A DNA stretch of 32,457 bases from an uncultured Acidobacteriota bacterium (lineage in GTDB: Bacteria > Acidobacteriota > Thermoanaerobaculia > UBA5066): assembly GCA_903845115.1 (NCBI GenBank), contig CAIMWE010000141.1, forward strand, positions 1 to 32,457, written 5' to 3'. The notes below the pieces were generated by a model that searched no databases, was not told the DNA's origin, and saw nothing but the letters and a program-made list of their open reading frames with translations. Each line of letters starts with the position of its first letter. Within the stretch, counting starts at the first letter, position 1. The translations under genes and the position numbers were made by a program. Shown one piece after another: positions 656 to 32,457 of the stretch.

Positions 656-665
656 CGGCTGCGGG

Positions 666-860: not shown

Positions 861-936
861 AGGGCCGAGTTCGGATGGCCCGGACCCGCTGATCAGACGA
901 GTCCGGGCGGGTTGAAGCGGTTCGGGGTGTCTGCGA

Positions 937-1904: not shown

Positions 1905-1928
1905 GGGGGTCAGGTCTCAACACTGTGA
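1905..1928 (+). repeat. Left inverted end of Y1 element
   Basis: 24 nt starting GGGGGTCAGGTCTC and ending CTGTGA. It pairs with 2899-2922 at 22 of 24 positions; the two mismatches are A/T changes at the 15th and 18th bases. Y1/HUH transposases usually recognise end hairpins or REP-like sequences, so these ends are the likely recognition sites. Confidence 0.75.
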
Positions 1929-1940
1929 TATTGTTACCGG

Positions 1941-2909
1941 GTGAGCCGACCCCTCAGGCCTGAAGTTCCGGGCGCCATCTGGCACATCACCTCCCGCGGG
2001 AACGAGCGCCACTCGATCTTCGTGGACGACGAGGACCGGGAACGGTTTCTCGAGCTGCTGGGGAAGGTAGCGGAGGACTTCAACTGGCGCTGCACCGCGT
2101 TCGTCTTGATGGGCAACCACTACCACCTCATGGCGGAGACGCCGGAGCCGACGCTCTCCCGCGGAATGCGTCAGTTGAACGGAGTCTATACGCTGGGGTT
2201 CAACAGGAGGCACGGCAGGGTGGGGCATCTCTTCCAAGGGCGCTTCAAGGCGATCCTGGTGGAACGGGAGTCGCATCTACTCGAGCTGATCCGGTACGTG
2301 GCGCTTAACCCGGTGCGGGCCGGACTCGTGGCGGCGCCGCAGGACTGGAAGTGGACCAGCTACCGGGCGACGGCGGGATTCGAGCCGGGGCCGTCGTGGC
2401 TGGAGTCGAAGTGGATCCTGTCCCAGTTCGGACCCGCGGGCCGGGACGCGGGGCGGCGCTACCGGGAGTTCGTGGACGCCGAGGCGGCGAGCCGGTACCG
2501 CCCGTGGGACAACCTTGCGGGGCAGATCTGCATCGGGAGCAAGCGATTCCGAGCGGAGGTCGAGGCGAAGGTCAGGCCGCTCGAGCCGCGCGGCGTTCCG
2601 CGGAGCCAGCTGCGGCCGGCACGGCCCACCCCGAAGGAGATCGCGGACGCCCTCGAGGAGGTACTCGGGCCGTTCGAGGCGACCAAGGGCGGGAGGTCGA
2701 AGGCGCGGCGCATCTACGCGAGCCTGCTCCATTCCGAGGGACTCCTGACCTACGTCGCGATGGCCGAGCACCTCGGCGTGGGCGCCTGGGCGGCGTCGCT
2801 CCTCGCGCGAGGCGGCGAGACGCTTCAGCGAGAGGATCGTGTTTTCGCCCGGAAAGCCGAGGCGGTCCGGAAGCGCCTCCGCTCGAGCCCTTCGAAAATC
2901 ACAGAGTAG
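1941..2909 (+). CDS. REP-associated tyrosine transposase (Y1/HUH family)
   Basis: 322 aa, starting at GTG 1941. Y1 transposases cut and rejoin single-stranded DNA through a tyrosine that attaches to the 5' end. The HUH metal-binding motif is HYH at residues 60-62 (in MGNHYHLM). The likely nucleophile is Y119 in LIRYVALNPVRAG, and the N-terminal TSRGNERHSIF is the usual family signature. The first ~170 residues are the catalytic domain. The long C-terminal part (about residues 200-322) includes a possible helix-turn-helix (YVAMAEHLGVGAWAASLL) and a basic tail. No strong Shine-Dalgarno precedes the GTG. The gene has no visible frameshift and fills the element between its inverted ends, so it may be active. 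The next gene starts 68 nt downstream and is unrelated in function. Confidence 0.92.
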   Translation: MSRPLRPEVPGAIWHITSRGNERHSIFVDDEDRERFLELLGKVAEDFNWRCTAFVLMGNHYHLMAETPEPTLSRGMRQLNGVYTLGFNRRHGRVGHLFQGRFKAILVERESHLLELIRYVALNPVRAGLVAAPQDWKWTSYRATAGFEPGPSWLESKWILSQFGPAGRDAGRRYREFVDAEAASRYRPWDNLAGQICIGSKRFRAEVEAKVRPLEPRGVPRSQLRPARPTPKEIADALEEVLGPFEATKGGRSKARRIYASLLHSEGLLTYVAMAEHLGVGAWAASLLARGGETLQREDRVFARKAEAVRKRLRSSPSKITE

Positions 2910-13424: not shown

Positions 13425-16400
13425 GTGCCTCGGTCGGCCCTCGTCCGGCGACTCCTGGAGTCCGTTCACTCCGGGCGGCTCTCGGCCGAGGACGGGTTCG
13501 AGCTGATCCGCGCGCTCCGGAAGGAGGCGATTGGAGAGGCCGGCTCGCGGGAGAGCGAGGGAATCGCCGTCATCGGGATGGCGGGGCGATTCGCGGGAGC
13601 CGGCAACCTCGAGGAGTTCTGGGCGAACCTCGAGGCGGGACGGGACTCGGTCGTGGAGGTCCCGCCCGACCGCTGGGATCTCGAGCGCTTCTACGACCCC
13701 GACCCGGAGTCCGCGGGAAAGAGTCCCTGCCGCTGGGGCGGCTTCCTTCGTTCGGTCCGCGAGTTCGACCCCCGCTTCTTCGGCATCTCGCCCCGCGAAG
13801 CCGAGCGGATGGACCCGCAACAGCGGCTCTTCCTGGAGGTCGCCTGGAACGCGTTCGAGGACGCGGGCACCTCCCCCGAGGAGCTCCGGGGAAAGGTGTG
13901 CGCCGTCTACGTCGGTTGCAAGGAGGGGGACTACCGGGACCTCCTTCGGCTGGAGGCGCTGGACGCCTACGCGGCCATCGGGAGCAACCCCGCCATCCTC
14001 GCCGCCAGGATCTCGTACTCCCTGGACCTCAAGGGACCGAGCCTGACCGTCGACACGGCCTGCTCCTCTGCCCTCGTGGCGCTCCACCTGGCTTGCGAGA
14101 GTCTCCGCGCCGGGACCTGCGAGATGGCGCTCGTGGGGGGCGTGGCCGTGATGTCCACCCCGGGGAACCACGTGATGCTGGGCAAGACCGGGATGCTCTC
14201 GCCGAGGGGGCGGTGTCGAGCGTTCGACGCGAAGGCCGACGGATTCGTTCCCGGGGAGGGGGTCGGCGCCGTCGTCCTGAAGCCCCTCTCCCGGGCTCTC
14301 GCTGACCGCGACCACGTCCACGGAGTGATCCTCGGCTCCGGGACGAACCAGGACGGGCGGACGAACGGCATCACGGCCCCGAGCGGGCCGTCGCAGGAAG
14401 CCCTCGAGACCGCGGTGTACGACCGGTTCGGGATCGACCCGGCCACCTTGACCTACGTCGAGGCCCACGGGACCGGCACGGGACTCGGCGACCCGATCGA
14501 GGTGCAGGCCCTCTCGGCCGCGTTCCGGCGAAAGACCGCGCGGACGGGCTTCGCGGCCATCGGGTCGGTCAAGACGAACATCGGCCACGCCCTGGCGGCT
14601 TCCGGGATCGCGGGCCTGCTCAAGGTGCTGCTCTGCCTCGAGCGCAGGACGCTGGTCCCCTCGCTCCACTTCGACAGGGAGAACGAGCTGCTCGACCTGG
14701 CGCGGAGCCCGTTCCACGTGAACACGCGAACGCGTCCGTGGGACGTGGAGGGGGGGATTCCGCGGCGCGCCGCGGTCAGCTCCTTCGGGTTCAGCGGGAC
14801 GAACGCGCACGTGGTTGTGGGCGAGGCGCCCGACGTGAAGCGGACGGGGGGCCCGGCGGGCACGCCCTTCCCGTTCGTCTTCTCCGCGAGGACCGAGGAG
14901 GCCCTGAGACGGCGGATCGGGGACTTCCGCACCTGGCTGGGGAGCCGCGGACGGGGCCAACGGCCCGAGGACGTCGCGTTCACCCTCCTGCGCGGGCGGA
15001 GCTGGATGGCGTGCCGCGCGGCCGTCGTGGCGAGGACGGCGGACGAGCTGGAGGGGAGGCTGGCCGAGCTCCTCTCCTCCGGGACCGTCTCCGGATCGTG
15101 CCCTGGAAGCGGACGGGAGGTCGCGGCGGCGGAAGGGATCGCCCTCGCGTTCGTCCGGGGCGAACCTCCCGCGACCGACGCCCTTTTTGGCGGCCTGGAC
15201 GTCCGGAGGGTCCGGCTGCCGGGGTATCCGTTCGCCCGGGAGTCGTACTGGGTCCCGGACGCGGACCTGAGGCCGTTCGGGGGAACGGTCGAGCCGCGTC
15301 CGGACGCCGGCGACGTGGTGGCGGGCAGGGTGCGCCTCTCCGGAGAGGAGTTCTTCCTCCGGGACCACGTCGTGGCGGGGCGGCGGCTCCTGCCGGGGGT
15401 GGCCCTTCTGGAGATGGTCCGCGCGGCGGCCCAGCTCGCCTGCGGCTCGCCCGTCCGGACGATGCGGAACGTGGTCTGGGGAAGTCCCGTCGCCTTCGAG
15501 GGCGAGGCGGTGGACCTCGCGATCCACCTTTTCCGGTCCGCCTCCCCGGGGACCAGGCCCTTCGAGGTGTGGAGCTCGCCGCCGGACGGCCGGCGTCTCC
15601 ACTCGAGCGGCACCGTCGTCTTCTCCCGCGGCGACGAGGGCGCCGCGCCCGAACGCGTCGACCTCGAGGCGATCCTGGCCCGGGTCGGCCCGCCGCTCGC
15701 GAGAGGCGAGACGTACGCGCGCTTCTCGGAGCAGGGGTTCGACTACGGGCCTTCGCTGCAGGCGATCGTGGGGCTCGCCGGAAACGGGTCCGAGGCCCTC
15801 GCCTCGCTCGAGCTCCCGCCGAGCGTCGTGGAGACGGCGTCCTCGTGGGTACTCCACCCGAGCCTCCTCGACGGGGCCCTGCAGGCCTTGCTGGGCGTCA
15901 CCGGGCGGAGCGGCGAGGCGGGCTCCCCGGTGCCGTTCAGCCTGGGCGAGCTCGAGGTGCTCGGACCGCTTCCCCCGACCTGCCTCGCGTGGCTCGTGGT
16001 GAGCGGACCGGCAGGCAAGACGGGGCTCGAGAAGCTCGACGTCCGCCTGTTCGGACCGTCCGGCAAGGTCCTCGTGCGGATGAGGGATCTCTCGATCCGC
16101 AGGCTCCGGGGAGAGCCCGCGGCCGTCTCGTCCGGCCGGGCCGCAGCCGGAACGGCGACCCCTCCGGAGGCGGCACTTCCCGTGGCGGACGGCAGCGTCG
16201 CACCGGACCGGGCCCGCCGGGAGGCGGAGCGCCTCGTGCGCGCGGCGCTGGAGCGGGCGGTGCGGATCCCCGCCGGGCAACTGGGCCCGCGTGAGTCGTT
16301 CGAGTCGCTCGGCGTCGATTCGATCATGGTGATGAGCATGACGCGCGAGCTGGAGAGGAGCCTCGGCGAGCTGCCGAAGACGCTCTTCTTCGAGCACCGG

Positions 16401-19400
16401 AACCTGGCCGACCTGTCGGCCTCCCTCGCGCGGAGCCACGAGGGGCCCCTCCTCGCCCTCCGGGCGGAAGAGCCGCCGCGGTCCTCCGGCAGCGAGGCCG
16501 GAGCCGCCCCGCCGGCTCCTGCTCCTGGTCCCGGGGCGGCGCCCGCTCCGGGACGTGCGAAGGCCGTGCGGGGGGACGCCGGCGGCGAGAGGGAGCCGAT
16601 CGCCGTCATCGGGCTCGCCGGCCGCTACCCGATGGCCGCGGACCTCGACGTCTTCTGGGACAACCTGAAGGCCGGGCGGGACTGCATCACGGAGATCCCG
16701 AAAGAGCGCTGGGACTGCCGGCGCGACTTCGACCCGGACCCGGAGCACGAGGGGAAGAGCTACAGCCGGTGGGGGGGCTTCGTTCCCGACGTCGAGGCGT
16801 TCGACCCGCTCTTCTTCCGCATCTCGCCGCGCGAGGCCGAGATCATGGACCCCCAGGAGCGGCTCTTCCTCGAGGCCTCCTGGGCGGCGCTGGAGGACGC
16901 GGGGTACGCCCCGGGGACCCTCGGAACCCGGCGCGTGGGCGTCTGGGCCGGGGTGATGTACGGGCACTACCAGCTCTACGGCGCCGAAGCGGCGCTCCGG
17001 GGGAGGAACGTGGCCCTCGGCGCCTCCTACGCGTCGATCGCGAACCGGGTCTCGTTCACGTTCGACTTCCGGGGACCGAGCCTCGCCCTCGACTCGATGT
17101 GCTCGTCCTCCCTCACGGCGCTGCACCTCGCGTGCGATTCGCTCCGCCGCGGCGAGGTCGACGTGGCCCTGGCGGGCGGCGTGAACGTCACGATCCACCC
17201 GCAGAAGTACCTCCTCCTGAGCCAGGCGAAGGTGGCCTCGACGGACGGGCGGTGCCGCAGCTTCGGCGCCGGCGGGGACGGGTACGTGCCGGGCGAGGGA
17301 GTCGGGGTCCTCGTCCTGAAGCCGCTTTCGAGGGCGCTCGCCGACGGGGACCACATCCACGGGCTCGTCCTCGGGACCGCGGTCGGCCACGGGGGGCGGA
17401 CGAACGGCTACACGGTGCCCGACCCGGCCGCCCAGGCGGAGGTGATCGCGGAGGCGCTCGCGCGCGCGGGCGTGCCGGCGAGGACGGTGAGCTACCTGGA
17501 GGCGCACGGGACGGGGACCGCCCTGGGCGACCCGATCGAGGTGGCGGGGCTCACCCGCGCCTTCCGGGCGACGACGGACGACGACGGGTTCTGTGCGATC
17601 GGCTCCCTCAAGTCGAACGTCGGCCACCTCGAGGCGGCCGCGGGCGTGGCAGGGGTGACGAAGGTCCTCCTCCAGATGCGGCACGGCCAGCTCGTTCCTT
17701 CGCTCCACGCCGCGGTGCCGAACCCCCACATCGACTTCTCCCGCACGCCGTTCGTCCTCCAGCGCGAGGCGGCCCCCTGGCCCCGGCCGGCATCCCGGGG
17801 GGACGGCGGAGACCGCCCGCTGCGCCGGGCCGGGGTGAGCTCGTTCGGCGCCGGGGGCTCGAACGCTCACGTCGTCCTCGAGGAGTTCGACTCCGGGGAA
17901 GGGACGACCCTCCCCGAGGATCGCCCGCAGCTCTTCGTCCTCTCGGCCAGGAACGGGGAGCGGCTCCGGCTCTCCGCGCGGCGCCTCGCGGCCTTCCTGG
18001 AGCGGCGAGCGGCCGGCCAGAGGGAAGGCGGCCCTCTCCTCGCGTCCGACGTGGCTTACACGCTCCAGGTGGGGCGCGAGGCGATGGAGTCGAGGCTCGC
18101 CGTGGTGGCGGAGTCGCTCGGGACCCTGGCGGCGAAGCTCCGCCGGTTCGCCGAAGAGGGAGCCGGATCGAGCGGCGACCCATCCGCCGTGGTCGGCGAG
18201 CGGACCCGGCGAAGTGCCAGCTCTCCCCTCGCGCTGGAGGAGGAGGACCTCCACGAGATGGCGGGCTCTCTCCTGCTCGCGGGGAAGCTTTCGACCCTGG
18301 CGCGGATGTGGGCGTCGGGGGCGGACCTCGACTGGCGACGGCTCCGCTCCGGGAGCCGCGCGAGGCGCGTCCCCCTTCCGACGTACCCCTTCGCGAGGGA
18401 GCGCTACTGGATGCCCGATTCCCTGCCCCGTGGACCGCTGGAAGCCGCCGGCCTCGCGGTCCAGGCCGGCAGCGCGACGGCGTCGTCCGCGGAGGTCGCC
18501 GACGGCCACCGGCTCGTCGGTCGGGGAGAGGCCCGCGGCGAGGGGATGCGGTTCCCGTGCGAGCTCTCCGCGGGGGACGACGTCATCGGGCATCACGTCG
18601 TGGGCTCTTCGGCCCGCCTCCCCGCCGCCGTCTCGCTTGAGCTGGCCAGGGCGGCGGGAGCCCTGGCCGCCGGCCGTCCCGTGCGGGGGCTGGGCGGAGT
18701 GGCCTGGCGGGCGCCCCTCGATTTCCCGGGGGGAACCCGGAGCATCGAGGCGCGCCTCGGACCCGTCCAGGAGGGGGGCTGCTCTTTCGAGCTGGTCGCC
18801 CTCGACACGTCGCCCCCCGTCGTCGTGGCCGAGGGGCACGTCCTCTTCGGCGAGAAGGGCGAAAGGGAGCCTCCTCCGGTCGATCTCGGCGCCGCCTGGA
18901 GGCGCTGCGGGCCGGTATCGAGCGGGGCCGCGACTTACGAGGCGCTCCGCGCCGCCGGACTCGCCCACGGAGACCGCTACCGGGTGATCGAGGAGAGCGC
19001 GACCGGAGAGGGGGAGGCGATCGCGCGGCTGAAGCTCCCGCTGGAGCTCCTCCCCGAGCTCGAGACGCTCCCGTTTCACCCCTCGCTCCTCGACGGTGCC
19101 CTCCAGGTGGTGGCCGGAGTCGGAGGGTGCTGGCCCGCCGGAGCGCTCCCCGTTCCCTTCGCGCTCGGCGAGATCCGCGTCTTCGGCCCGCTTCCGGCGA
19201 GCCTCGAGGTCCACGCGCGGCTAGCCGCTCGGCCGGAGGGTCCCATCCGGAGGTTCGACGTGGACCTGGTCGCCCCGTCGGGCCGGACGGTCGCGACGAT
19301 GCGGGACCTGGCGGTGAAGGTCCTGGCCCCTCGGGAAACGGACGCGCCGACGCCCCTCCTCTACGCGCCGGTCTGGATCGGCCAGTCTCACCTCTCTCCG

Positions 19401-22400
19401 GCGGCAGTGCGAGAGGGAGTGCTGATCCTCGCCGGGGAGGCCTCCCGCGACGAGCTGGTCCGGGCGGTTTCCGGGATGGCCAGCCAGGTCGCCGTCGCGG
19501 TTCCCGGAAGGGCCTTCGCTTCCACGGGGGAGGGGCGCTTCGAGGTCCGGCCCGGCGAGGTCGCCGACTTCCGGGACCTCCTGGAGCAGCTCTCCCGCGG
19601 CGGACCGGGCCCGGGGACGATCGTTCACGCCTGGGCAGGCCCCGCCGCGGACGGTGCGGGGGCGTTCTGGCCCGAGCGCGCGCGGGGGATCGGGACCCTC
19701 TTCGCCCTGACGCGCGCCCTCCTCGGGCAGAGGTCGATCCGAGACGTCGAGGTGCTCTTCTTCCACCCCTCGGGCGCCTTCGGTCCCTCTCCCGTGCACG
19801 CCGCGGCAGCGGGGTTCGCCCGGAGCCTCGTGCAGGAGAACCCGCGGGTGAGGTGCCGCGTGGTCGGCTACGAGGGGGCCCTCGCGGAGACCGTCGGCAA
19901 GGAGCTGGCGATCGGGTCGAGACGTGCCGACATCGAGGTCGTCCACGAGTCGGGCGAGCGGCGGGTGCGTCGCCTCCGGAGGATCGCGGCGGCCGGGCTC
20001 GACGCGGCCGACGCGGCGCCTCTCCGTCCGCGCGGGGTCTACCTCGTGACGGGAGGCCTCAAGGGGATCGGATTCCACGTGGCGCGCCATCTCGCCCGGA
20101 CCGTGAACGCCCGGCTCGTCCTCGCCGGGAGGTCCGAGGCAGGAGACGGGGCCCGAGAGCGGCTGGCGCAGCTGGAGGCGGACGGGGGAGCGGCCGTCTA
20201 CTTGCCGGGCGACGTGGCGGACTTCGCCCACGCCGAGCGCCTCGTGGCCGCCGCGCGGGACCGCTTCGGCGGCCTCAACGGGGTCGTGCACGCGGCCGGC
20301 GTCCTGCGGGACGGGTTCCTCCTGAAGAAGACGGAAGCCGACTTCGAGGCGGTGGTGGCTCCGAAGGTCGGGGGGGCGCTCGTCCTCGACGAGGTGACGG
20401 CCTCCCTGCCGCTCGACCTCTTCGTCCTCTTCTCCTCGCTGGCAGGGACCCTGGGGAACGTCGGGCAGGCCGACTACGCCTACGCCAATGCGTTCCTCGA
20501 CGCCTTCGCGGGGCAGCGGGAGCGCTGGCGGGTGGCCGGGCGGCGGCAGGGGCGCTCCCTCTCGATCGGCTGGGCGTACTGGAAGGACGGCGGGATGCGG
20601 ATGAGCGAGGCCGCCGAGCGCCTCCTCGTGGAGAGCGGCCTCCGGTCGCTCGACGCGGGGAGCGGCCTCGCCGCTTTCCGCCGGTGCCTCTCGGTCCCGG
20701 GGAGCCACCTCGTGGTCGCCGACGGGGAGGCGCCGGCGGTCGATGCCCTGGTGGGGGCCGTGGCCGACGGCGAGGTCGAGGTCGCGGCCGAGGCCGCGGA
20801 GTCCTCCTCGGCGGAGACGCGGGGACGTCCGGGGGGGCTCCCGGTAGTCCCGCGAGGAGTGCGGCCGGAAGCGCCCGGGGCCGAGGTCGAGCGGGCCGCT
20901 GGCCTGGTCGCCGGCGCCCTCTCTCGCGTCCTGAAAGTCCCGGTCGGGCGCATCCGTCCGGACGACCCGTTCCTCGACTACGGGGTCGACTCCGTCACGG
21001 CCCTCGCGGTGACGCGCGCCCTGGAGGGGACCTACGGGCCTCTGCCGAAGACGCTCCTCTTCGAGCACGGGAGCGTCGCCCGGCTCTCGGCCCACCTGGC
21101 GAGCGAAGGCTCCCGAGCGGCCCCGCCCCCGGCTCCCGCGAAGGCCGCCGAGGCACCGCCGCCGCGGCATTTCGCCCCTACCGTCGCCGCCTGGACGCGT
21201 CCCGGGATCCCTGTCCGCGAGGAGGACGTCGCGATCATCGGGCTCGCGGGGCGGTACCCGATGGCGCCGGACCTCGGCACCCTCTGGACGAACCTGGCGG
21301 GCGGGCGCGACTGCGTCACCGAGGTGCCGGGCGACCGCTGGGGCGAGGAGTGGTTCGACGCGGGAGGGGCCCCGGGCAAGTCGACCTGCCGGTGGGGAGG
21401 CTTCCTCGACGGCGTGGACCGGTTCGACCCCCGGTTCTTCGGGATCACCCCGCGGGAAGCCGAGCTGATGGACCCGCAGGAGCGCCTCTTCCTGGAGGTG
21501 GCCTGGCAGACGGTCGAGGACGCCGCCCTGACCCGCGGAGCCCTCGAGAGGAGCCGGGTGGGCGTCTTCGTCGGCGTGATGTGGGCCCAGTACCAGCTGT
21601 TCGGGGCCGAGTGCCTCGCCCGGGGCGAGGCCGTCCCCGCCTCTTCGTTCGCTTCCATCGCGAACCGGGTCTCCTACTTCTGCGGCTTCACGGGGCCGAG
21701 CCTCGCCCTCGACACGATGTGCTCCTCCTCGCTCACCGCGATCCACCTCGCGTGCGAGAGCCTCCGCCGGGGCGAGTGTGACGTGGCCCTGGCGGGAGGG
21801 GTGAACGTCTCGATCCACCCGCAGAAGTACGTGCTGCTGAGCCAGGGGCGCTTCGTGGCGAAGGGGGGGCGCTGCCGGGCCTTCGGAGCCGGGGCCGACG
21901 GCTACGTCCCTGGCGAGGGGGTCGGGGCGGCGCTCCTCAAGCCGCTCGCCCGGGCGCTCGCGGACGGGGACCCGATCCGGGCGGTCATCAAGGCGAGCGC
22001 CGTGAACCACGGCGGGCGCAGCGCCGGATACTCGGTCCCGAGCGCGAAGGGGCAGGGAGCGCTCGTCCGGCGGGCCATCGAGCTGTCCGGCGTGGAACCG
22101 GGCTCCATCTCGTACGTCGAGGCGCACGGGACGGGGACCGCCCTGGGAGACCCGATCGAGGTGCGCGGGCTGGAGGAGGCTCTCCGCTCCTCCGGTTTCC
22201 CCGCGGGAGGCTGCGCCCTCGGCTCGGTCAAGTCGAACCTCGGGCACCTGGAGTCGGCGGCGGGGATCGCGGGCCTGACGAAGGTCGTCCTACAGCTCGA
22301 GCATCGCCGGCTCGTCCCGACGCTCCACGCCGAGGTCCTCAACCCGGACCTCGGGCTCCTGGGGACGCCGTTCCGGATCCAGCGGGAGCTCTCGGAGTGG

Positions 22401-25400: not shown

Positions 25401-28400
25401 TCCAACCCCGATTTCGATGCCGACCTCGCCCGGCTGGCCGAGCGCCGGCCCGACCTCCGGGCCGTCGCCGAGGAGCACCGGGGGTGGCACGGGTTCGGCC
25501 TCGCCCTCGACGCGGGACTCCTCTCCTACGTGCTCCTGTCGATCGAGCAGGGGGGAGGCCAGAGCGTGGAAGAGCTCTCCGGGCGGAGCCGAGCGGCGCT
25601 CGTGGAGCCGGTCCCGTACCGGCAGGCGCTCCGGGAGGCCGAGGAGGGCCGGAACGCGGCGGGGCCGAGGACGATCCCGGCGCCCGTGGCCGGGCCGGCT
25701 CCTGTCGAGGCGCCGGACGTGGCGTCGCTGGTCGAGCGGATCACCGGGATCGCGGCCCGCGCGCTCGGGACGGAGGCCGCGAGGCTCGATCCGGGCACCC
25801 CGCTCGCCGAGTACGGGGTCGGCTCCCTCCTCGGCCTGAAGCTCCTGGAGGAGATCAACCGGGAGCTGGGTTCGCGCCTCGAAATTAGGGCCCTCTACGA
25901 CCACCCGACGCTCCGGGCGCTCGGCCGCCACGCCGCGCGGGAGCTCTCCGCCACGGGGCCTGTCGCGTCCCGTGCCGTGAGCGTCGCCCCGGGGGCGACC
26001 CGGCCGGAGGGCGACATCGCCGTGATCGGGATGGCGGGGCGATTCCCCCTCGCCCGCGAGGTGAGCCAGCTGTGGCGGAACCTGGCGGCGGGGGTCGACG
26101 CGGTCACGGAGGTGCCGGCCAGCCGCTGGGACTGGCACCGGCACTTCGACCCGAACCCGCGCGCCGCGGACCGGACGGTGAGCCGGTGGGGCGGCTTCGT
26201 GGACGGCGTCTTCGAGTTCGACCCGGCGTTCTTCCGCATCTCGCCCTCCGAGGCGCTCGTGATGGACCCGCAGCAGAGGCTCTTCCTCGAGGCCTGCTGG
26301 ACGGCGCTGGAAGACGCCGGCTACGCCGGGTCTGCGGTGGACGGGGCGCGCTGTGGCGTGGTGGCGGGGGCGCTCGACGGCGACTACCGGAAGCGGCTGC
26401 GGCGCGAGGGCGCCGCCCCTCGCGTGGCGCAGTCGATGCTGGGGAACTCGGGCTCCATCCTGGCGTCGCGTATCGCGTACTTCCTCAACCTGAAGGGCCC
26501 GGCCCTCAGCGTCAACACCGCCTGCTCGTCGGCTCTCGTGGGTGTTCACCTCTCGTGCGAGAGCCTGCGGCGGGGAGAGACCGACCTCATGCTGGCCGGC
26601 GGCGTGACGCTCTACCTCGACGAGGAGCCTTTCATCCTGATGAGCAAGGCCGGGATGCTCTCGCCCACCGGACGCTGCCGGGCGTTCGACGACGACGCCG
26701 ACGGCATCGCGGTGGGGGAGGCCGTGGCCGTGGTCGTCCTGAAGCGCCTCGCCGACGCGCAGCGCGACGGCGACCGCGTCTACGGCGTGATCCGGGGCTC
26801 GGGCGTCAACCAGGACGGCCGGACGAACGGGATCACGGCGCCGAGCGGGGAGGCGCAGACCGCGCTCGTCCGCGAAGTGCTGGAGAGGAGCGGCGTCGAC
26901 CCCGGGACGATCGGGTACGTGGAGGCGCACGGCACCGGGACGCGCCTCGGCGACCCGATCGAGGTCCGGGCGCTCACCGACGCGTTCCGGGCCTTCACGG
27001 ACCGCCGGGGTTTCTGCGCGCTCGGCTCGGTGAAGAGCAATCTCGGCCACACGTCGGCGGCGTCGGGCGTCGTCGGCCTCGTCAAGGTCCTCCTCTCCCT
27101 CCGTCACGAGTGCATCCCGCCGACGCTCCACGTCACGCGTGAGAACGGACACCTCGGCCTCGAGTCGAGCCCCTTCTTCGTGAACCGCTCTCCCCGGGGC
27201 TGGCCGGCGAGGAAAGGGGCGCCGCGACGGGCCGCCGTCAGCTCGTTCGGCTACAGCGGGACGAACTGCCACGTGATCGTGGAGGAAGCTCCGCCGCGCG
27301 CCGTGTGCGGAAGCGTCCCGACGGGGGAAGGGCTTCCCGGCTCTCCCCGGGGCGACGCCGGCGTGGAGCTCGTCCCTCTCTCCGCCCGGACCGAGGAGCG
27401 GCTGCGCGATTACGCGACCGAGCTCCTCTCGTCCCTCGAGGGGCCGGGCGTCCCCCCCGACGACGCGGTCGACGACGCCCGCCGGGCCCTCGCGGAAGTG
27501 GCTGCCGTCTTCCAGCTGCGCGAGCCGATGGAGGCGCGTCTGGCCGCCGTCGTCTCGAGCCTGGCCGGGCTCCGGGCGAAGCTCCGCGGCTTCCTGGCCG
27601 GCGAGCCGGGCGAGGCGGGCCTCTTCCGCCCCGGCACGCTCCCGACCCAGGAGGGCCACGACTGGAGTTCGCTGGCCAGCCAGTGGGTCTCGGGGGCCGA
27701 GGTCGGCTTCCGAGAGCTTCGCCGGAAGGCGGGAATCCCTCTCCCGGAGCGTCGCCTCGACATCCTCCCGACCTATCCGTTCGCGAGGGGGAGCTACGGG
27801 CTCCCCGCTCCCGAGGCGGCCCCGGCCGCGTCGCCGTCCCCTTCCTCGAGGGTCGTGGAGCGGCTCGACGGGACGGACCCACGCGTCTGCGAGCACGTCG
27901 TCCAGGGCGTGAAGACGCTCCCGGGGGTCGCGGCCCTCGAGATGGCCCGTGCGGGGGGAGAGAGGGCGCTGCCGGGGAGGGGCGTCTCGGGGCTCCGGGA
28001 CGTCGTCTGGTCGAGGCCGGTCACCGTCCCCGAGGGGACCGTCGTCGAGCTGGAGCTGGAGGTGAAGGAGCGGCCCGGCGGAGAGGTGACGTTCGTCCTG
28101 TCGAGCGGCTCCGTGGAGCACGTCCGGGGACGGCTCGTGTTCGGGGAGGGGACCGGCCGGGAGGACGGCCCCGCCGGCCCGCTCGACCTCGCGGCCATCC
28201 TGAGTCGCTGCACGCGCTCGACCGGCGGGGAGGAGTTCTACCTGGCGTTCGGGACGAGCGGGGTCGCGCACGGCCCCTCGCTCCGCTCCGTGAGGGAACT
28301 CCTGGCGGGAGACGGGGAGGCGATCGCCCGGCTGGAATGGCCCGAACCGTTCCCGCTCCCCGGCGCGCGCCTCGACCTCGCGATGCTCGACGGGGCCCTG

Positions 28401-31400
28401 CAGACGGTCCTCGGGATCCTGGGGACGGAGGGCGGGAACGTCCTCTATCTCCCCTACGCCCTCCAGGCGCTCGACGTCGCGGGAGATCTCCCCGCTCGTG
28501 CCTACTCCCACGCGGTCGCGCGTCCCGACGACGAGCCGGGGAGGGAGGCCGGGACGCGCCGGTTCGACGTCACCCTCGCCGACGAGGGAGGGTGCGTCGC
28601 CGTGAGACTGACGGGCCTGGCCCTGCGCCCCGTCGCGGGGGCGGGGCCGGAGGTCTCTCCGGCCGCGGCTGTCCGGGGAGGCCTGGCCGCAGGGCTCCTC
28701 GTCGTCGGGCCGACCTGGGCTCCCTCCCCGCTGGCCGCCGCGCCGGCGTCGCCCCTGGGGGCTGTCGTCCTCTTCGACGGCCGGCCCGGCCGGGGTGAGG
28801 CCCTGCGGCGGGCGATCGCGGGAGAAGAAAGCGATGGCGGGGGAGACCTCGCGGTCGAGGTGGTCGCCGGGGATCGCTTCCGTTCGCTCGGCGGACTCTC
28901 GTTCGAGGCGCGCCCCGGCTCGCCCGAGGACGCGCGGGCGCTGACGGGCGAGCTGGTGTCTCGCGGCATCGCGCCCAGGACCGTCCTCGTCCTCTGGACC
29001 GGGGACGCGCCGGATCTCGAGTCCCAGCTCGTGCGAGGGTTCGATTCGTGCCTCTCGATCGCTCGCTCGGTGACGACTGCATGGCCCGGCCGGCGAGTCG
29101 ACCTCCTCGTCGTGGCCGGGGAGGGCGTGGAGGGCGCCGAGCCCGCCCTCGCCGCGCTCGGAGGCCTGGCCCGGAGCCTGTCGCGGGAAGCTCCCCACGT
29201 CTCGTGCCGGGTCGTCCACGTGCCGGAGGCGCTCCTCCGGGCGGAGGCCGCGCCGGACCTCGTCTCGCTCCTCCTGGCGGAAGCGCGAGGAGGCGCGGCG
29301 ATCGACCGCGAGGTGCGGTACTCGGGGAAGGAGAGGCTCGTCCTGGGTCTCTCGGAGATCGACCTGCCCCACGGCGCGGAGAGCGCGGCACCGGGGCCGG
29401 AGGTCTCCCTCGTGACGGGGGGGATAGGCGGGCTGGGGCGGCTCTTCGCCTCGCACCTGGCCCGGCGTCCCGGCGCGAGGCTCGTCCTCTCCGGCCGCTC
29501 GGCGCCGGACGAGGCGAGCGCCTCCTTCCTGCGGGAGCTGGAGGGGCTGGGGGCCGAGGCGATCTACGTTCCCGCCGACGTCGCGAGTCCCGAGGACGTC
29601 GAGCGCCTCCTCTCTTCTGCGCGGAGCCGGTTCGGGTCGGTGAACGCCGTCTACCACGCCGCGGGGGTGGCGGCGCCGGGCGCCGGACGGGCCGTCCTCT
29701 CTCCGAAGGTCCAGGGGTCGCTCCTCCTCGACGAAGCCACGAGAGAGGAGCCGCTCCGGCTGTTCGCGCTCTTCTCGTCCGTCGCCGGGGTCCTGGGGGA
29801 CGACTTCCAGCCGGGATACGCGTTCGCGAACGCGTTCCTCGACCGCTTCGCGCTCCGCCGCGAGGGGAGGAGGGCGCTGGGTCTCCGCCGCGGACGGACG
29901 CTCTCGATCGCGTGGCCCCCCTGGCGGGACGGCGGCATGCAGGGAGGGCCGGAACGGGAGCGGCTCCTCGCGTCGCTCGGCCTCGTGCCGCTCGGCGCCG
30001 CCGAGGGAATCGCGCTCTTCGAGAGGATCGCGGCGTCGGAGTGGAGCCGCTGCTTGCCGCTTCCGGGCGACGTCGTGCGGCTGCGGCACCTCGTCTCCGG
30101 CGCGGCCCTCACGACTTCGCCGCGATTGCAGGCCGGCGGACCGGCCGGGGCCGTCGCTCCGGCCGCGGTCGCGCCGTCCTTCGACGCCGTCGAGTCCGCG
30201 AGACGCGGTGTCCGGGAAGCCGTCTGCGAGATCCTGGGTGTGCGGCCCGGAGACGTCGACCTCGACGCGGACCTGCGCGACCACGGTTTCGACTCGATCG
30301 GGTTCACCGAGCTGGCCAACCGGCTGAACGACCGCTGGGGCCTCTCCCTCACGCCGGCTCTCTTCTTCGAGCATCCCACCCTGGAGAGCGTCGCCACGGC
30401 CGTCGCGGCCCGCCTCCCCGCGCCGCCGGAGACGCCCCGTCCCGTGCCCGGGAGGGCCGGGGAGGCCCCGTCCCCCCAGCCCGCGAGCAGGCCAGAGGGC
30501 GGGGCCGGGTCGACCTCCCGCGCGGTGGCTCCGCCGCCCGGCGGACCGGTGCCTCCATCTCCGGAGGGAGAGAGGGCTCGGCACGCCCCGGGTGAAGGCC
30601 CCGAGCCGATCGCCGTCATCGGCATGAGCGGGGTGATGCCCGGCTCGAGGGACCTCGAGACGTTCTGGCGGCACCTCGCTGCCGGGACCGACCTCGTGAC
30701 GGAGGTCCCCGCGGAGCGCCAGGACGCGAGCGGAGGGGCGGCGGACGAGACGGGGGGCCCGGTCGCGAGACGCGCCGGCTTCATGCCGGACGTGGACCGG
30801 TTCGACGCGGCCTTCTTCGGCATCTCGCCCCGCGAGGCGAGCCTCATGGACCCGCAGCAGAGGCTCTTCCTGGAGACGGTCTGGGCGACGATCGAGGACG
30901 CGGGGTACCGGGCGTCGGACCTGGCGGGCTCGTCGACCGGGGTCTTCGTGGGGGTGGCGAGCCTCGACTACGGCAACCTGATGGCGCGCGCGGGGGTGCC
31001 TGGCGACGCCCACTCCACGACGGGGATCTCGCATTCGGTCCTGGCCAACCGCGTCTCGAGCTTTCTCGACCTGCACGGCCCGAGCGAACCGATCGACACC
31101 GCCTGCTCGAGCTCCCTCGTCGCCATCCACCGCGCCATCGAGTCGATGCGGGGCGGCGACTGCGACCTCGCGATCGCGGGGGGGGTGAACGCGCTCCTCT
31201 CCCCGGACCTCTTCGACGCGTTCTCGAAGGCCGGGATGCTGAGCCCCGACGGCTGCTGCCGGACCTTCGACGCCTCCGCGAACGGGTACGTCCGGGGCGA
31301 GGGGGTCGGCGCCGTCCTCCTCAAGCCCCTCTCCCGCGCGCTCGCCGACGGCGACCAGATCCACGGCGTGATCCGGGGCTCGGCCGAGAACCACGGCGGA

Positions 31401-32457
31401 CGGGCGACGAGCCTCACGGCCCCCAACCCGAAGGCGCAGTCGGCGGTCATCGTCCGGGCCTGCGAGCGGGCGGGGGTCGACCCGGCCACCCTGACGTACG
31501 TGGAGGCTCACGGCACCGGGACCCGCCTGGGGGACCCGGTCGAGGTGAACGCCCTCAAGGAGGCCTTCTCAGAGCTCTTCCGCCGGCGCGGAGAGGAGCC
31601 CCCTCGGGAGCCCACCTGCGGCCTCGGCACGGTGAAGACGAACATCGGCCACCTCGAAACGGCCGCGGGGATCGCGGGAGTCCTCAAGGTCCTCCTCTCG
31701 TTCCGCCACCGCCTCCTCCCGGCCACCCTTCACTTCCGGGAGCTGAACCCGTTCATCGACCTCTCGGGGAGCCCGTTCTACGTGGTCGCGAGCGCCCGGG
31801 AGTGGGCGCCCGCGATGGACCGGGCCGGGCGGCTGGTGCGGCGGGCCGGCGTCAGCTCCTTCGGCTTCGGCGGGGCGAACGCCCACCTCGTCCTGGAGGA
31901 GTTCGTGCCGGGCGGGACGTCGCCCGCATCCCCCGGGGAGCGGCTCTTTCCCCTCTCGGCGCACAGCGAGGAGCGGCTGAGGGAGTACGCGGGCCGCCTG
32001 GCGCGGTTCGTCGAGGAAGGGACGGAGCTTCCCGAGCCGGAGTTCCTCTCCCGCGTGGCGTTCACGCTCCAGGCGGGACGGGAGGCGATGGAGGAGCGGC
32101 TGGCCTTCACGGCCGCGAGCCGCGCCGAGCTCAGGGACCGGCTCGCGGCCTTCGCGGCCGGCGATGTCGCCGGCGGCGTGCGGCGGGGCACCGTCCGGAG
32201 CGGCGGCCACGGTGAAGGAGTGCTGATCGACGGCGAGGAGGGGCGCGACTTCGTCAGGGCGCTGACCCTGAACGGGAAGCTCGACCGGCTCGCGCGGCTG
32301 TGGGTCACGGGCGCCGAGGTGGACTGGAACCTCCTCGACCCGGTCCATCCCCGCAGGATCTCCCTGCCGTCGTACCCCTTCGAGCGCCGGCGCTTCTGGT
32401 TCGACCAGGGGCCGGAGCCCCTTCCGCTCCCGATCCGGAGGGAGGCCGCGCAGGAGG
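13425..32457 (+). CDS. Giant trans-AT modular polyketide synthase, 3' end outside the window
   Basis: A single frame of 6,344 codons with no stop, open at the right edge. The start is taken as GTG 13425, the first start codon after the in-frame stop at 13419-13421; no strong Shine-Dalgarno precedes it. The first ~40 residues (VRRLLESVHSGRLSAEDGF) look like an N-terminal docking helix pair. Domain order by residue: KS1 47-468, DH 630-894, ACP 933-1005; KS2 1059-1489, DH 1695-1965, KR to about 2420, ACP around Ser2523; KS3 2602-3019, ACP around Ser3245; KS4 3307-3722, cMT about 3767-4065, ACP around Ser4134; KS5 4197-4622, DH about 4805-5070, KR to about 5550, ACP around Ser5624; KS6 5727-6160, then cut. 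No AT domain or GHSxG motif is seen; each KS is followed by only 10-170 residues before a YPFxR-type linker. Malonyl units must therefore be supplied by a separate AT. All six KS starts lie in one reading frame, so no frameshift is evident. Confidence 0.95.
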   Translation, partial: MPRSALVRRLLESVHSGRLSAEDGFELIRALRKEAIGEAGSRESEGIAVIGMAGRFAGAGNLEEFWANLEAGRDSVVEVPPDRWDLERFYDPDPESAGKSPCRWGGFLRSVREFDPRFFGISPREAERMDPQQRLFLEVAWNAFEDAGTSPEELRGKVCAVYVGCKEGDYRDLLRLEALDAYAAIGSNPAILAARISYSLDLKGPSLTVDTACSSALVALHLACESLRAGTCEMALVGGVAVMSTPGNHVMLGKTGMLSPRGRCRAFDAKADGFVPGEGVGAVVLKPLSRALADRDHVHGVILGSGTNQDGRTNGITAPSGPSQEALETAVYDRFGIDPATLTYVEAHGTGTGLGDPIEVQALSAAFRRKTARTGFAAIGSVKTNIGHALAASGIAGLLKVLLCLERRTLVPSLHFDRENELLDLARSPFHVNTRTRPWDVEGGIPRRAAVSSFGFSGTNAHVVVGEAPDVKRTGGPAGTPFPFVFSARTEEALRRRIGDFRTWLGSRGRGQRPEDVAFTLLRGRSWMACRAAVVARTADELEGRLAELLSSGTVSGSCPGSGREVAAAEGIALAFVRGEPPATDALFGGLDVRRVRLPGYPFARESYWVPDADLRPFGGTVEPRPDAGDVVAGRVRLSGEEFFLRDHVVAGRRLLPGVALLEMVRAAAQLACGSPVRTMRNVVWGSPVAFEGEAVDLAIHLFRSASPGTRPFEVWSSPPDGRRLHSSGTVVFSRGDEGAAPERVDLEAILARVGPPLARGETYARFSEQGFDYGPSLQAIVGLAGNGSEALASLELPPSVVETASSWVLHPSLLDGALQALLGVTGRSGEAGSPVPFSLGELEVLGPLPPTCLAWLVVSGPAGKTGLEKLDVRLFGPSGKVLVRMRDLSIRRLRGEPAAVSSGRAAAGTATPPEAALPVADGSVAPDRARREAERLVRAALERAVRIPAGQLGPRESFESLGVDSIMVMSMTRELERSLGELPKTLFFEHRNLADLSASLARSHEGPLLALRAEEPPRSSGSEAGAAPPAPAPGPGAAPAPGRAKAVRGDAGGEREPIAVIGLAGRYPMAADLDVFWDNLKAGRDCITEIPKERWDCRRDFDPDPEHEGKSYSRWGGFVPDVEAFDPLFFRISPREAEIMDPQERLFLEASWAALEDAGYAPGTLGTRRVGVWAGVMYGHYQLYGAEAALRGRNVALGASYASIANRVSFTFDFRGPSLALDSMCSSSLTALHLACDSLRRGEVDVALAGGVNVTIHPQKYLLLSQAKVASTDGRCRSFGAGGDGYVPGEGVGVLVLKPLSRALADGDHIHGLVLGTAVGHGGRTNGYTVPDPAAQAEVIAEALARAGVPARTVSYLEAHGTGTALGDPIEVAGLTRAFRATTDDDGFCAIGSLKSNVGHLEAAAGVAGVTKVLLQMRHGQLVPSLHAAVPNPHIDFSRTPFVLQREAAPWPRPASRGDGGDRPLRRAGVSSFGAGGSNAHVVLEEFDSGEGTTLPEDRPQLFVLSARNGERLRLSARRLAAFLERRAAGQREGGPLLASDVAYTLQVGREAMESRLAVVAESLGTLAAKLRRFAEEGAGSSGDPSAVVGERTRRSASSPLALEEEDLHEMAGSLLLAGKLSTLARMWASGADLDWRRLRSGSRARRVPLPTYPFARERYWMPDSLPRGPLEAAGLAVQAGSATASSAEVADGHRLVGRGEARGEGMRFPCELSAGDDVIGHHVVGSSARLPAAVSLELARAAGALAAGRPVRGLGGVAWRAPLDFPGGTRSIEARLGPVQEGGCSFELVALDTSPPVVVAEGHVLFGEKGEREPPPVDLGAAWRRCGPVSSGAATYEALRAAGLAHGDRYRVIEESATGEGEAIARLKLPLELLPELETLPFHPSLLDGALQVVAGVGGCWPAGALPVPFALGEIRVFGPLPASLEVHARLAARPEGPIRRFDVDLVAPSGRTVATMRDLAVKVLAPRETDAPTPLLYAPVWIGQSHLSPAAVREGVLILAGEASRDELVRAVSGMASQVAVAVPGRAFASTGEGRFEVRPGEVADFRDLLEQLSRGGPGPGTIVHAWAGPAADGAGAFWPERARGIGTLFALTRALLGQRSIRDVEVLFFHPSGAFGPSPVHAAAAGFARSLVQENPRVRCRVVGYEGALAETVGKELAIGSRRADIEVVHESGERRVRRLRRIAAAGLDAADAAPLRPRGVYLVTGGLKGIGFHVARHLARTVNARLVLAGRSEAGDGARERLAQLEADGGAAVYLPGDVADFAHAERLVAAARDRFGGLNGVVHAAGVLRDGFLLKKTEADFEAVVAPKVGGALVLDEVTASLPLDLFVLFSSLAGTLGNVGQADYAYANAFLDAFAGQRERWRVAGRRQGRSLSIGWAYWKDGGMRMSEAAERLLVESGLRSLDAGSGLAAFRRCLSVPGSHLVVADGEAPAVDALVGAVADGEVEVAAEAAESSSAETRGRPGGLPVVPRGVRPEAPGAEVERAAGLVAGALSRVLKVPVGRIRPDDPFLDYGVDSVTALAVTRALEGTYGPLPKTLLFEHGSVARLSAHLASEGSRAAPPPAPAKAAEAPPPRHFAPTVAAWTRPGIPVREEDVAIIGLAGRYPMAPDLGTLWTNLAGGRDCVTEVPGDRWGEEWFDAGGAPGKSTCRWGGFLDGVDRFDPRFFGITPREAELMDPQERLFLEVAWQTVEDAALTRGALERSRVGVFVGVMWAQYQLFGAECLARGEAVPASSFASIANRVSYFCGFTGPSLALDTMCSSSLTAIHLACESLRRGECDVALAGGVNVSIHPQKYVLLSQGRFVAKGGRCRAFGAGADGYVPGEGVGAALLKPLARALADGDPIRAVIKASAVNHGGRSAGYSVPSAKGQGALVRRAIELSGVEPGSISYVEAHGTGTALGDPIEVRGLEEALRSSGFPAGGCALGSVKSNLGHLESAAGIAGLTKVVLQLEHRRLVPTLHAEVLNPDLGLLGTPFRIQRELSEWTGSPLRAGVSSFGAGGANAHLVLEEAPVPDGREERPEDGTPRLVLLSARNEERLRESARRLASFVGERSGPGLALADVARTTQLGREAMEERLAVVAGDLGQLRRLLEGFSDGAPEEGGVFTGRVGESAPPREEAGRLKARWLSEGNLEELARLWVAGAEVDWSELPAEGGRRISIPPYPFARERHWVAGTSAVAPPARAESAGQEERPPASRPAAVGTSPRAYLEGLLLSQFKLRVTVADENVNFADLGLDSVLSAELIGRMEKELGPLPKTLVLEYPTLRALSEHLAENHGERLSAPSPAPVEARGGGDPGPVDIAIVGIAGRYPGARSLEEFWSLLREGRTAVSRCARERWALVGVPAADVVGEWGAFLPDVDRFDPFAFGITPLEARGMPPEERLFLEVAWRTLEDAGYSQAELAGRSVGVFVGATANTYPLALAEARPSDLPAPDTSSFSLANRVSYFFDWTGPSLVVDTACSSSLAALHLACESLRRGECELAVAGGVNLYLHPSRYRRLAQGRLLATTGPRGLYERGGEGFVPGEGVGAVLLRPLSRALADGDHVHGVIRASGLSHKGRSNGFHAPSPRSQPALLSRVLASAGLDASSIGYVEAQAIGSEVPDAVEWQGLGRVFAGGTAGRCALGSLKPAIGHLEAASGIAQLTKVLLQIRHGEMAPVRVARETSAEIRLEGSPFFVPEAPTPWPATGLARRALLGSFGAGGVEVFLVVEEPPEAGRGGRAPLPPRPFERVRCWLDGNGPAATVGKAAEAPAGAAGDSPVARYYDAAIPPAGADEEALLTFAPFPELVPGFSWLNVMTDPGQYPAEARLVREKQLELRGVALRHVDLGSVRRLLDLGCGLASDLVRLTRANGALTADGYTLSPAQARAGEEGIRRAGLEGRCRVFCRDSAAEAFPGVYDLVIGFEVTFHVERKEALFANVAAHLAPGGRLVLADVVARTAAPVRLGERGQFTSNVEEWCAVLARAGLYVAGCVDASREVATFLSNPDFDADLARLAERRPDLRAVAEEHRGWHGFGLALDAGLLSYVLLSIEQGGGQSVEELSGRSRAALVEPVPYRQALREAEEGRNAAGPRTIPAPVAGPAPVEAPDVASLVERITGIAARALGTEAARLDPGTPLAEYGVGSLLGLKLLEEINRELGSRLEIRALYDHPTLRALGRHAARELSATGPVASRAVSVAPGATRPEGDIAVIGMAGRFPLAREVSQLWRNLAAGVDAVTEVPASRWDWHRHFDPNPRAADRTVSRWGGFVDGVFEFDPAFFRISPSEALVMDPQQRLFLEACWTALEDAGYAGSAVDGARCGVVAGALDGDYRKRLRREGAAPRVAQSMLGNSGSILASRIAYFLNLKGPALSVNTACSSALVGVHLSCESLRRGETDLMLAGGVTLYLDEEPFILMSKAGMLSPTGRCRAFDDDADGIAVGEAVAVVVLKRLADAQRDGDRVYGVIRGSGVNQDGRTNGITAPSGEAQTALVREVLERSGVDPGTIGYVEAHGTGTRLGDPIEVRALTDAFRAFTDRRGFCALGSVKSNLGHTSAASGVVGLVKVLLSLRHECIPPTLHVTRENGHLGLESSPFFVNRSPRGWPARKGAPRRAAVSSFGYSGTNCHVIVEEAPPRAVCGSVPTGEGLPGSPRGDAGVELVPLSARTEERLRDYATELLSSLEGPGVPPDDAVDDARRALAEVAAVFQLREPMEARLAAVVSSLAGLRAKLRGFLAGEPGEAGLFRPGTLPTQEGHDWSSLASQWVSGAEVGFRELRRKAGIPLPERRLDILPTYPFARGSYGLPAPEAAPAASPSPSSRVVERLDGTDPRVCEHVVQGVKTLPGVAALEMARAGGERALPGRGVSGLRDVVWSRPVTVPEGTVVELELEVKERPGGEVTFVLSSGSVEHVRGRLVFGEGTGREDGPAGPLDLAAILSRCTRSTGGEEFYLAFGTSGVAHGPSLRSVRELLAGDGEAIARLEWPEPFPLPGARLDLAMLDGALQTVLGILGTEGGNVLYLPYALQALDVAGDLPARAYSHAVARPDDEPGREAGTRRFDVTLADEGGCVAVRLTGLALRPVAGAGPEVSPAAAVRGGLAAGLLVVGPTWAPSPLAAAPASPLGAVVLFDGRPGRGEALRRAIAGEESDGGGDLAVEVVAGDRFRSLGGLSFEARPGSPEDARALTGELVSRGIAPRTVLVLWTGDAPDLESQLVRGFDSCLSIARSVTTAWPGRRVDLLVVAGEGVEGAEPALAALGGLARSLSREAPHVSCRVVHVPEALLRAEAAPDLVSLLLAEARGGAAIDREVRYSGKERLVLGLSEIDLPHGAESAAPGPEVSLVTGGIGGLGRLFASHLARRPGARLVLSGRSAPDEASASFLRELEGLGAEAIYVPADVASPEDVERLLSSARSRFGSVNAVYHAAGVAAPGAGRAVLSPKVQGSLLLDEATREEPLRLFALFSSVAGVLGDDFQPGYAFANAFLDRFALRREGRRALGLRRGRTLSIAWPPWRDGGMQGGPERERLLASLGLVPLGAAEGIALFERIAASEWSRCLPLPGDVVRLRHLVSGAALTTSPRLQAGGPAGAVAPAAVAPSFDAVESARRGVREAVCEILGVRPGDVDLDADLRDHGFDSIGFTELANRLNDRWGLSLTPALFFEHPTLESVATAVAARLPAPPETPRPVPGRAGEAPSPQPASRPEGGAGSTSRAVAPPPGGPVPPSPEGERARHAPGEGPEPIAVIGMSGVMPGSRDLETFWRHLAAGTDLVTEVPAERQDASGGAADETGGPVARRAGFMPDVDRFDAAFFGISPREASLMDPQQRLFLETVWATIEDAGYRASDLAGSSTGVFVGVASLDYGNLMARAGVPGDAHSTTGISHSVLANRVSSFLDLHGPSEPIDTACSSSLVAIHRAIESMRGGDCDLAIAGGVNALLSPDLFDAFSKAGMLSPDGCCRTFDASANGYVRGEGVGAVLLKPLSRALADGDQIHGVIRGSAENHGGRATSLTAPNPKAQSAVIVRACERAGVDPATLTYVEAHGTGTRLGDPVEVNALKEAFSELFRRRGEEPPREPTCGLGTVKTNIGHLETAAGIAGVLKVLLSFRHRLLPATLHFRELNPFIDLSGSPFYVVASAREWAPAMDRAGRLVRRAGVSSFGFGGANAHLVLEEFVPGGTSPASPGERLFPLSAHSEERLREYAGRLARFVEEGTELPEPEFLSRVAFTLQAGREAMEERLAFTAASRAELRDRLAAFAAGDVAGGVRRGTVRSGGHGEGVLIDGEEGRDFVRALTLNGKLDRLARLWVTGAEVDWNLLDPVHPRRISLPSYPFERRRFWFDQGPEPLPLPIRREAAQE
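13563..16440 (+). other. PKS module 1: KS1-DH-ACP
   Basis: KS1 has the complete catalytic set: Cys213 (DTACSSAL), His348 (EAHGTGT) and His388 (KTNIGH). It is followed by about 130 residues and the LPGYPFARESYW linker, with no AT. The DH has His648 in HVVAGRRLLP, a FDYGPSLQ segment and Asp816 in HPSLLDGALQ, so it looks active. There is no KR in this module. The ACP serine is Ser966 in GVDSIMVM, followed by LPKTLFFEH, a typical trans-AT carrier sequence. Dehydration therefore needs a hydroxyl made elsewhere: by a trans KR, or on an upstream protein before transfer, as in split modules. No loading domain precedes KS1. Confidence 0.88.
16593..21110 (+). other. PKS module 2: KS2-DH-KR-ACP
   Basis: KS2 has Cys1226 within DSMCSSSLTA, plus HGTGT and SNVGH, so it is complete. 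The DH keeps His1724 and Asp1890 (HPSLLDGALQ). However, the Gly of the HxxxGxxxxP motif is Ser (HVVGSSARLP), and the usual YGPxF segment reads HGDRY, so activity is uncertain. The KR has TGGLKGIG for NADPH and catalytic Ser2338 and Tyr2351 (FSSLAG...QADYAYAN). An LRD sequence after HAAGV carries the Asp associated with B-type ketoreduction. The ACP serine is Ser2523 (GVDSVTAL). The expected output is a beta-hydroxy or, if the DH works, an alpha,beta-unsaturated unit. Confidence 0.88.
21228..23280 (+). other. PKS module 3: KS3-ACP
   Basis: KS3 has Cys2766 (DTMCSSSLTA), EAHGTGT and SNLGH, so it should condense. About 150 residues and an IPPYPFARERHW linker lead directly into an ACP with Ser3245 (GLDSVLSAEL). 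No reductive domain lies between. The product on this ACP should be a beta-keto thioester, which the next half-module can take over. KS3 closely resembles KS2, including the Met before the active-site Cys and the YQLxGAE segment. Confidence 0.88.
23343..25950 (+). other. PKS module 4: non-elongating KS4 - C-methyltransferase - ACP
   Basis: KS4 keeps Cys3469 (DTACSSSLAA) and His3642 (PAIGH). In the HGTGT position it reads QAIGS (Gln3604), and the following GDP motif is lost. The end motif, normally NAHxVLEE, is VEVFLVVEE. Loss of the HGTGT histidine is the standard mark of a KS that transfers chains but does not condense. The post-KS linker has almost vanished: LPPRPFERVRCW follows within about ten residues. 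The methyltransferase shows FAPFPELVPGFSW and the SAM motif LLDLGCGLASD (around residue 3843), with GFEVTFHV further on, typical of trans-AT cMTs. The ACP serine is Ser4134, but the motif is GVGSLL, with Gly replacing the usual Asp. Confidence 0.88.
26007..30417 (+). other. PKS module 5: KS5-DH-KR-ACP
   Basis: KS5 has Cys4367 (NTACSSALVG), EAHGTGT and SNLGH. The DH has His4824 in HVVQGVKTLP and Asp4989 in MLDGALQ, so it should be active. The KR has TGGIGGLG, with Ser5452 and Tyr5465 (FSSVAG...PGYAFAN). Between HAAGV and PKVQG it is about eight residues shorter than the KR of module 2, and it lacks the LxD aspartate, which suggests A-type or altered stereochemistry. The ACP serine is Ser5624 (GFDSIGFTEL). 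The ACP is followed by a roughly 60-residue Pro/Gly/Arg-rich linker. Expected output: a double bond. Confidence 0.88.
30603..32457 (+). other. PKS module 6: KS6, remainder outside the window
   Basis: KS6 has Cys5894 (DTACSSSLVA), EAHGTGTRLGDP and TNIGH, so it should condense. It differs from the other KSs in the part after the active site (IHRAIESMRGGD; PDLFDAFSKAGMLSPDG). It probably belongs to another substrate clade. The LPSYPFERRRFW linker is reached near the right edge; the processing domains and ACP lie beyond it. Confidence 0.85.

Follow-up and report, generated by a model that had tools for sequence, protein, structure and literature searches.

A PKS frame that is still open at the end of its contig and carries no AT raises the questions of whether it is a functional trans-AT gene and of where the rest of its assembly line is encoded. 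The window analysed here spans contig C141 (32,457 bp) from end to end; the contig belongs to a genome of 5.85 Mb in 305 contigs.

The PKS frame and its domains

The frame opens with a GTG at 13425 and runs for 6,344 codons, without a stop, until the window ends. Its length is weak evidence: in DNA of 74% GC either strand commonly holds long frames, and antisense frames of 2,119 and 3,073 aa are also present. It is nevertheless a real gene, the decisive points being the domain matches (KS E near 1e-250; with Pfam 3.7e-278 and 1.9e-253, one for each half of the protein) and a GC3 of 0.92. HMMs built in this analysis recovered six KS, three DH, two KR, five ACP and one methyltransferase domain in the order KS-DH-ACP / KS-DH-KR-ACP / KS-ACP / KS-MT-ACP / KS-DH-KR-ACP / KS (Table 1), behind an N-terminal, docking-like helix region of ~44 aa.

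Pfam detected no AT domain in the frame, and a genome-wide AT search placed none on C141; this includes the intervals between KS and processing domains. Assignment to the trans-AT class is supported by this absence, by RhiE-like post-KS linkers, by the best solved-structure matches of KS5, which are mostly trans-AT or AT-less KSs (7zma, PksL, 4z37, PksJ and an "AT-less" PKS), and by the presence in the genome of a further contig, C119, which has two free-standing ATs together with matching PKS genes. A previous sequence-only reading had described a trans-AT line in one uninterrupted frame with six KS and no AT, still open at the window end. Each of these points is borne out, the contig itself stopping at 32457, and the proposed module order agrees with the HMM result, the identity of the methyltransferase excepted. 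That reading also placed the gene at a cluster edge, as the contents of the contig confirm: left of 13425 lie efflux and small accessory genes and then transposases (at the left contig end, window 1-2909, one transposase gene of the Y1/IS200 type and one IstB-like gene of IS21).

The degraded DH2 motif, the non-elongating KS4 and the end of the contig within the gene could be taken as signs of a decayed or misassembled, nonfunctional PKS. Such an origin appears extremely improbable in view of the 6,344 codons without a stop, the high GC3, the intact active-site residues in five of the six KSs and the recurrence of KS0-oMT pairs in relatives.

Table 1. Positions of the PKS gene, its domains and the associated accessory and efflux genes
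Feature	Contig or locus	Positions	Strand	Remarks
DUF6312 copy a (PF19831)	C141	2978..3289	+	E 8e-20
TolC-like outer membrane efflux protein	C141	3335..4906	+	
RND periplasmic adaptor (HlyD)	C141	4917..6005	+	
RND transporter 1 (ACR_tran)	C141	5999..9229	+	start approximate
RND transporter 2 (ACR_tran)	C141	9223..12411	+	start approximate
DUF6200 (PF19702)	C141	12565..12858	-	E 1.7e-23; beside DUF6312 copy b
DUF6312 copy b (PF19831)	C141	12963..13274	+	E 4.5e-20; 150 bp upstream of PKS gene
trans-AT PKS gene	C141	13425..32456	+	6,344 codons; 3' end cut by contig end; modules 1-6
KS1	C141	13557..14834	+	Cys-His-His intact
DH1	C141	15225..16061	+	HVVAGRRLLP intact
ACP1	C141	16224..16436	+	
KS2	C141	16593..17894	+	Cys-His-His intact; MCSSSLT type
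DH2	C141	18384..19280	+	HxxxGxxxxP degraded to HVVGSSARLP; function doubtful
KR1	C141	19410..20624	+	with structural subdomain; LRD motif
ACP2	C141	20895..21107	+	
KS3	C141	21222..22484	+	Cys-His-His intact
ACP3	C141	23061..23273	+	
KS4	C141	23343..24593	+	non-elongating KS0; QAIGS replaces HGTGT
O-methyltransferase (oMT)	C141	24870..25454	+	StiE 6ecx, E 6e-58
ACP4	C141	25728..25943	+	
KS5	C141	26010..27296	+	Cys-His-His intact; groups with KSs downstream of other oMT modules
DH3	C141	27774..28589	+	HVVQGVKTLP intact; HPxxxD part altered to DLAMLD
KR2	C141	28758..29966	+	no LDD motif; LRD of KR1 also absent
ACP5	C141	30198..30413	+	
KS6	C141	30603..31910	+	Cys-His-His intact; final domain before contig end
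ABC1/UbiB ATPase gene	C119	52231-54240		adjoins AT
Further DUF6200-DUF6312-ABC1/UbiB set	L104	12869-15739		
Further DUF6200-DUF6312-ABC1/UbiB set	L101	2080-2865		

The KS4-methyltransferase pair

KS4 had been read as a KS0, and indeed it has lost the HGTGT histidine; with QAIGS standing in place of HGTGT it is non-elongating. The label of C-methyltransferase (cMT) given to the domain that follows had to be abandoned. Its top matches are the O-methyltransferase domains of StiE (E 6e-58, also the best solved structure) and StiD (E 9e-50), it carries the motif DLGCGLASD, and it falls into a separate HMM class from the C-methyltransferases of the cluster (MT versus MT2), which are of the LEVGAGTG type and with which it does not group. 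By sequence (E 6e-58 to 9e-50) the oMT family is therefore one that the window shares with the stigmatellin proteins StiD and StiE. The stigmatellin line is cis-AT and, unlike there, the window oMT follows a KS0.

In the KS tree, KS4 groups with other KS0-oMT KSs (support 99/99), KS5 with KSs following oMT modules in contig C30 of the same genome and in G023, another genome of the same class (98/87; 100/89 with KS4 of G023), and KS6 lies near KSs that come after DH-KR modules. This placement is consistent with delivery of an O-methylated intermediate to KS5. The module ahead of the pair lacks a KR, so that the group methylated may be either a hydroxyl or an enol; we count this missing KR against the overall model presented below.

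The probable remainder of the assembly line

A free-standing AT and a thioesterase, which the sequence-only reading had suggested looking for, are both encoded on C119: two ATs and a terminal TE, whose connection to C141 we infer from the evidence that follows. A single strand of C119 encodes the end of a KR and then a PKS with MT-ACP-KS-DH-ACP-KS-DH-KR-ACP-TE. The KR-bearing frame overlaps the next, MT-ACP PKS gene by 11 bp (C119 64096-64106) with the domain spacing of a continuous module, and the overlap represents either a split module or a frameshift. The next genes, on that strand too, encode an ABC1-family protein, an AT, a PPTase, the second AT, a decarboxylative-type KS, HMGS, ECH and a PfaD-type reductase (TIGR02814 score above cut-off). 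The same strand also carries a starter gene, in which the order formyltransferase-A-PCP-C-A-PCP precedes three PKS modules and tandem ACPs occur in the first of these; the formyltransferase (Formyl_trans_N, E 1.4e-15) has A and PP-binding domains beside it. Judged from a manual comparison with the GrsA positions, and hence as leads only, the code of the second A domain is close to glycine and that of the first has no clear match. C30 is a single open PKS frame. It holds five KS, one of them in a second KS0-oMT.

No contig-end overlap joining C141, C30 and C119 was found, although other PKS contigs of the genome are joined by 141-bp overlaps, and gaps of any size may lie between the three. One such joined pair, C255 and C174 (L008, L012, L013, L044; 141-bp overlap), holds a PKS cluster mixing AT-bearing and AT-less modules. 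The lack of overlap and the AT-less modules on C255/C174 would be compatible with the window gene belonging to a second trans-AT cluster, separate from that of C119. This is unlikely: high-scoring KS and KR domains of this type occur only on C141, C30 and C119; codon usage is alike among their PKS genes (L1 distance 0.085-0.108, against 0.16-0.18 for two of the genome's other PKS genes); a line begins and ends on C119 but its middle is missing there, while C141 and C30 have a middle but no start or end; and clusters elsewhere have the same accessory set that is here divided between C141 and C119. Codon usage, accessory genes and the complementary parts of the line indicate that the three contigs are likely to represent one trans-AT PKS-NRPS cluster of at least 77 kb, to which we also assign, by inference, the F-A-PCP loading module of C119.

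We consider it highly probable that the window ORF encodes the second multimodular protein of a C119/C30 trans-AT PKS-NRPS line with O-methylation, HMGS branching and RND export. The C119 starter protein would load and formylate an amino acid, add a second residue (the one with a code close to glycine) and extend it on three PKS modules. It probably feeds the window protein, since the latter opens directly with a KS behind its short N-terminal helix region. On the window protein the chain would pass six KS modules and be O-methylated once, by the KS0-oMT pair; it would then proceed on C30-type modules and be released by the C119 thioesterase. Malonyl units would come from the free-standing ATs of C119, and beta-branches would be introduced by the HMGS cassette at the tandem ACPs. 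Export would probably be by the RND pumps adjoining the PKS gene, where the TolC, HlyD and two RND genes are located upstream between two DUF6312 genes. The order of the proteins, the chemistry of each module and the export route are thus predictions, and the fragmentation of the assembly, with its further PKS genes including the AT-less modules of C255/C174, the missing overlaps and the first A domain code all count against them.

Formyl loading modules (F-A-PCP) are known from rhizopodin, oxazolomycin and conglobatin (PMC5764310), and the product could in principle be a known formyl-starter trans-AT compound such as rhizopodin, oxazolomycin or a relative. The two-residue start, the tandem-ACP beta-branch sites and the KS0-oMT order differ from the ptx and ozm lines (PMC5764310), and named matches in the plasmid collection remain below 48% identity, making a known product very unlikely. 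Among 148 relatives and 396 genomes sampled from the phylum, only three other genomes reach the stricter limit with a comparable KS0-oMT (48-54% identity), and none of the lines mapped in the genomes searched has the same module order. The best named match among 72,556 plasmids is a trans-AT cluster of Azospirillum argentinense (45.7% over 91% of the query), with a different architecture. Judged against these genome and plasmid collections, the description of the cluster as uncharacterised stands, and the data support the window PKS as a real orphan trans-AT line of a known kind. The sole match in a genome contig scan, a Nocardia locus, has cis-AT modules and is 36% identical; it was discarded as not being a useful relative. 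To our knowledge, few trans-AT products have been described from this probable acidobacterial lineage; the present line would add an orphan whose chain would start as a formyl-dipeptide and be beta-branched and O-methylated. The assignment of the lineage is indirect and comes from a match to the acidobacterial ADOP family that exceeds the family's cut-off.

The DUF6200-DUF6312-ABC1 set and related clusters

The small genes beside the efflux genes and the ABC1 gene of C119 belong to a recurring set, DUF6200-DUF6312-ABC1: several genomes of the phylum have it by their PKS clusters, and it is also present in trans-AT clusters of two alphaproteobacteria. Every DUF6312/DUF6200 locus over the cut-off examined in the phylum adjoins an ABC1 gene, except that of the window, whose partner would be the ABC1 gene of C119. 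Seven of 11 DUF loci have a KS, AT, A or C domain no more than 10 kb away, compared with one of 14 ABC1 loci without DUFs (Fisher p about 0.007), in a small and phylogenetically non-independent sample in which five of the 14 control loci gave no match with our in-house ABC1 model. That single control locus is an ABC1-PfaD-AT block of G023. A mere ABC1 background was rejected as an explanation: in the same genomes, ABC1 loci without DUF6200 lie away from megasynthase domains, save for this G023 block. A tblastn search of all plasmids with the window DUF6312 matched only Methylosinus trichosporium OB3b and A. argentinense (two records each), and in the one record examined per species the match lies inside a trans-AT cluster also carrying DUF6200 and ABC1.

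The set is not confined to such clusters. In the window's own genome (G000:C18 7577-13489, L014), DUF6200, DUF6312 and two neighbouring ABC1 genes lie beside a cis-AT PKS gene with two consecutive ATs. At L057/L064 (G110:C116) and L073 (G493:C22) it adjoins AT-KS-KR synthase genes which, by eye, are PUFA/enediyne-like and not modular PKS-like.

The closest PDB relatives of the C119 ABC1 protein are MSMEG_1954 and MABP-1 (Rv3197), with E about 1e-21 over about 280 aa. These are ATPases reported to confer macrolide resistance, and MABP-1 has been described in complex with erythromycin (PMC8696161, PMC6208485). Against NF050082, the model for MABP-1-type macrolide-binding ATPases, the C119 protein scores 88 bits (curated cut-off 800 bits) and, unlike MABP-1, it has C-terminal hydrophobic segments; it is only a distant relative. 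Two AarF/ABC1/UbiB genes, one affecting production, occur in the tiancimycin cluster (PMC9464397). Our literature search found no paper naming DUF6312 or DUF6200, and one pairing trans-AT with AarF/UbiB returned nothing on PKS clusters among the ten best matches. The association may be unfamiliar to specialists.

We regard the evidence as evenly balanced on whether polyketide clusters (mainly trans-AT) of different phyla share an undescribed accessory set made up of DUF6200, DUF6312 and the ABC1/UbiB ATPase and serving self-protection or the extraction and handover of a hydrophobic product, perhaps to the adjoining RND pump. Given the likeness to MABP-1/MSMEG_1954, distant as it is, and the tiancimycin genes, self-protection or product handling is a fair hypothesis. 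If correct, a module for immunity or product handling would assign a function to two Pfam families that have none, and the set could serve as a marker when genomes are mined for such clusters. It is a more general lead than the PKS itself and could be tested in the cultured M. trichosporium OB3b and A. argentinense.

Among the related systems, G023 encodes a second formyl-starter trans-AT line (G023:C40 3-56903, L033-L035; G023:C13 34303-38794, L117). It shares with the present line an FT-A-PCP start, KS0-oMT modules (49-54% identical) and DUF6200-DUF6312-ABC1 and ABC1-PfaD-AT blocks. It differs in its module order, in having a protein of 13,976 aa and in an NRPS module that combines an oxidase-like stretch with two domains of the condensation type. 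Its start also has an extra methyltransferase-like stretch between the FT and a Gly-type A domain (code read by hand), followed by the PCP and the KS0-oMT modules; in this it resembles rhizopodin-type compounds with their N-formyl-N-methyl starter logic. The cluster on plasmid p3 of A. argentinense Az39 (NZ_CP007796.1, about 17-98 kb; product unnamed in the record) contains a 45.7% identical KS0-oMT-ACP-KS block and, like C141 and C119 together, an AT di-domain, HMGS, DUF6312, DUF6200 and ABC1; it differs in module order, in its alphaproteobacterial host and in that no formyltransferase/NRPS start was found. The trans-AT cluster on pOB3b1 of M. trichosporium OB3b (NZ_CP023738.1) likewise has PfaD, DUF6200, DUF6312, ABC1, a PPTase and two ATs as neighbours of one another, along with a KS-HMGS-ECH cassette, but is distinguished by other PKS genes, a MupA-type monooxygenase and a P450.
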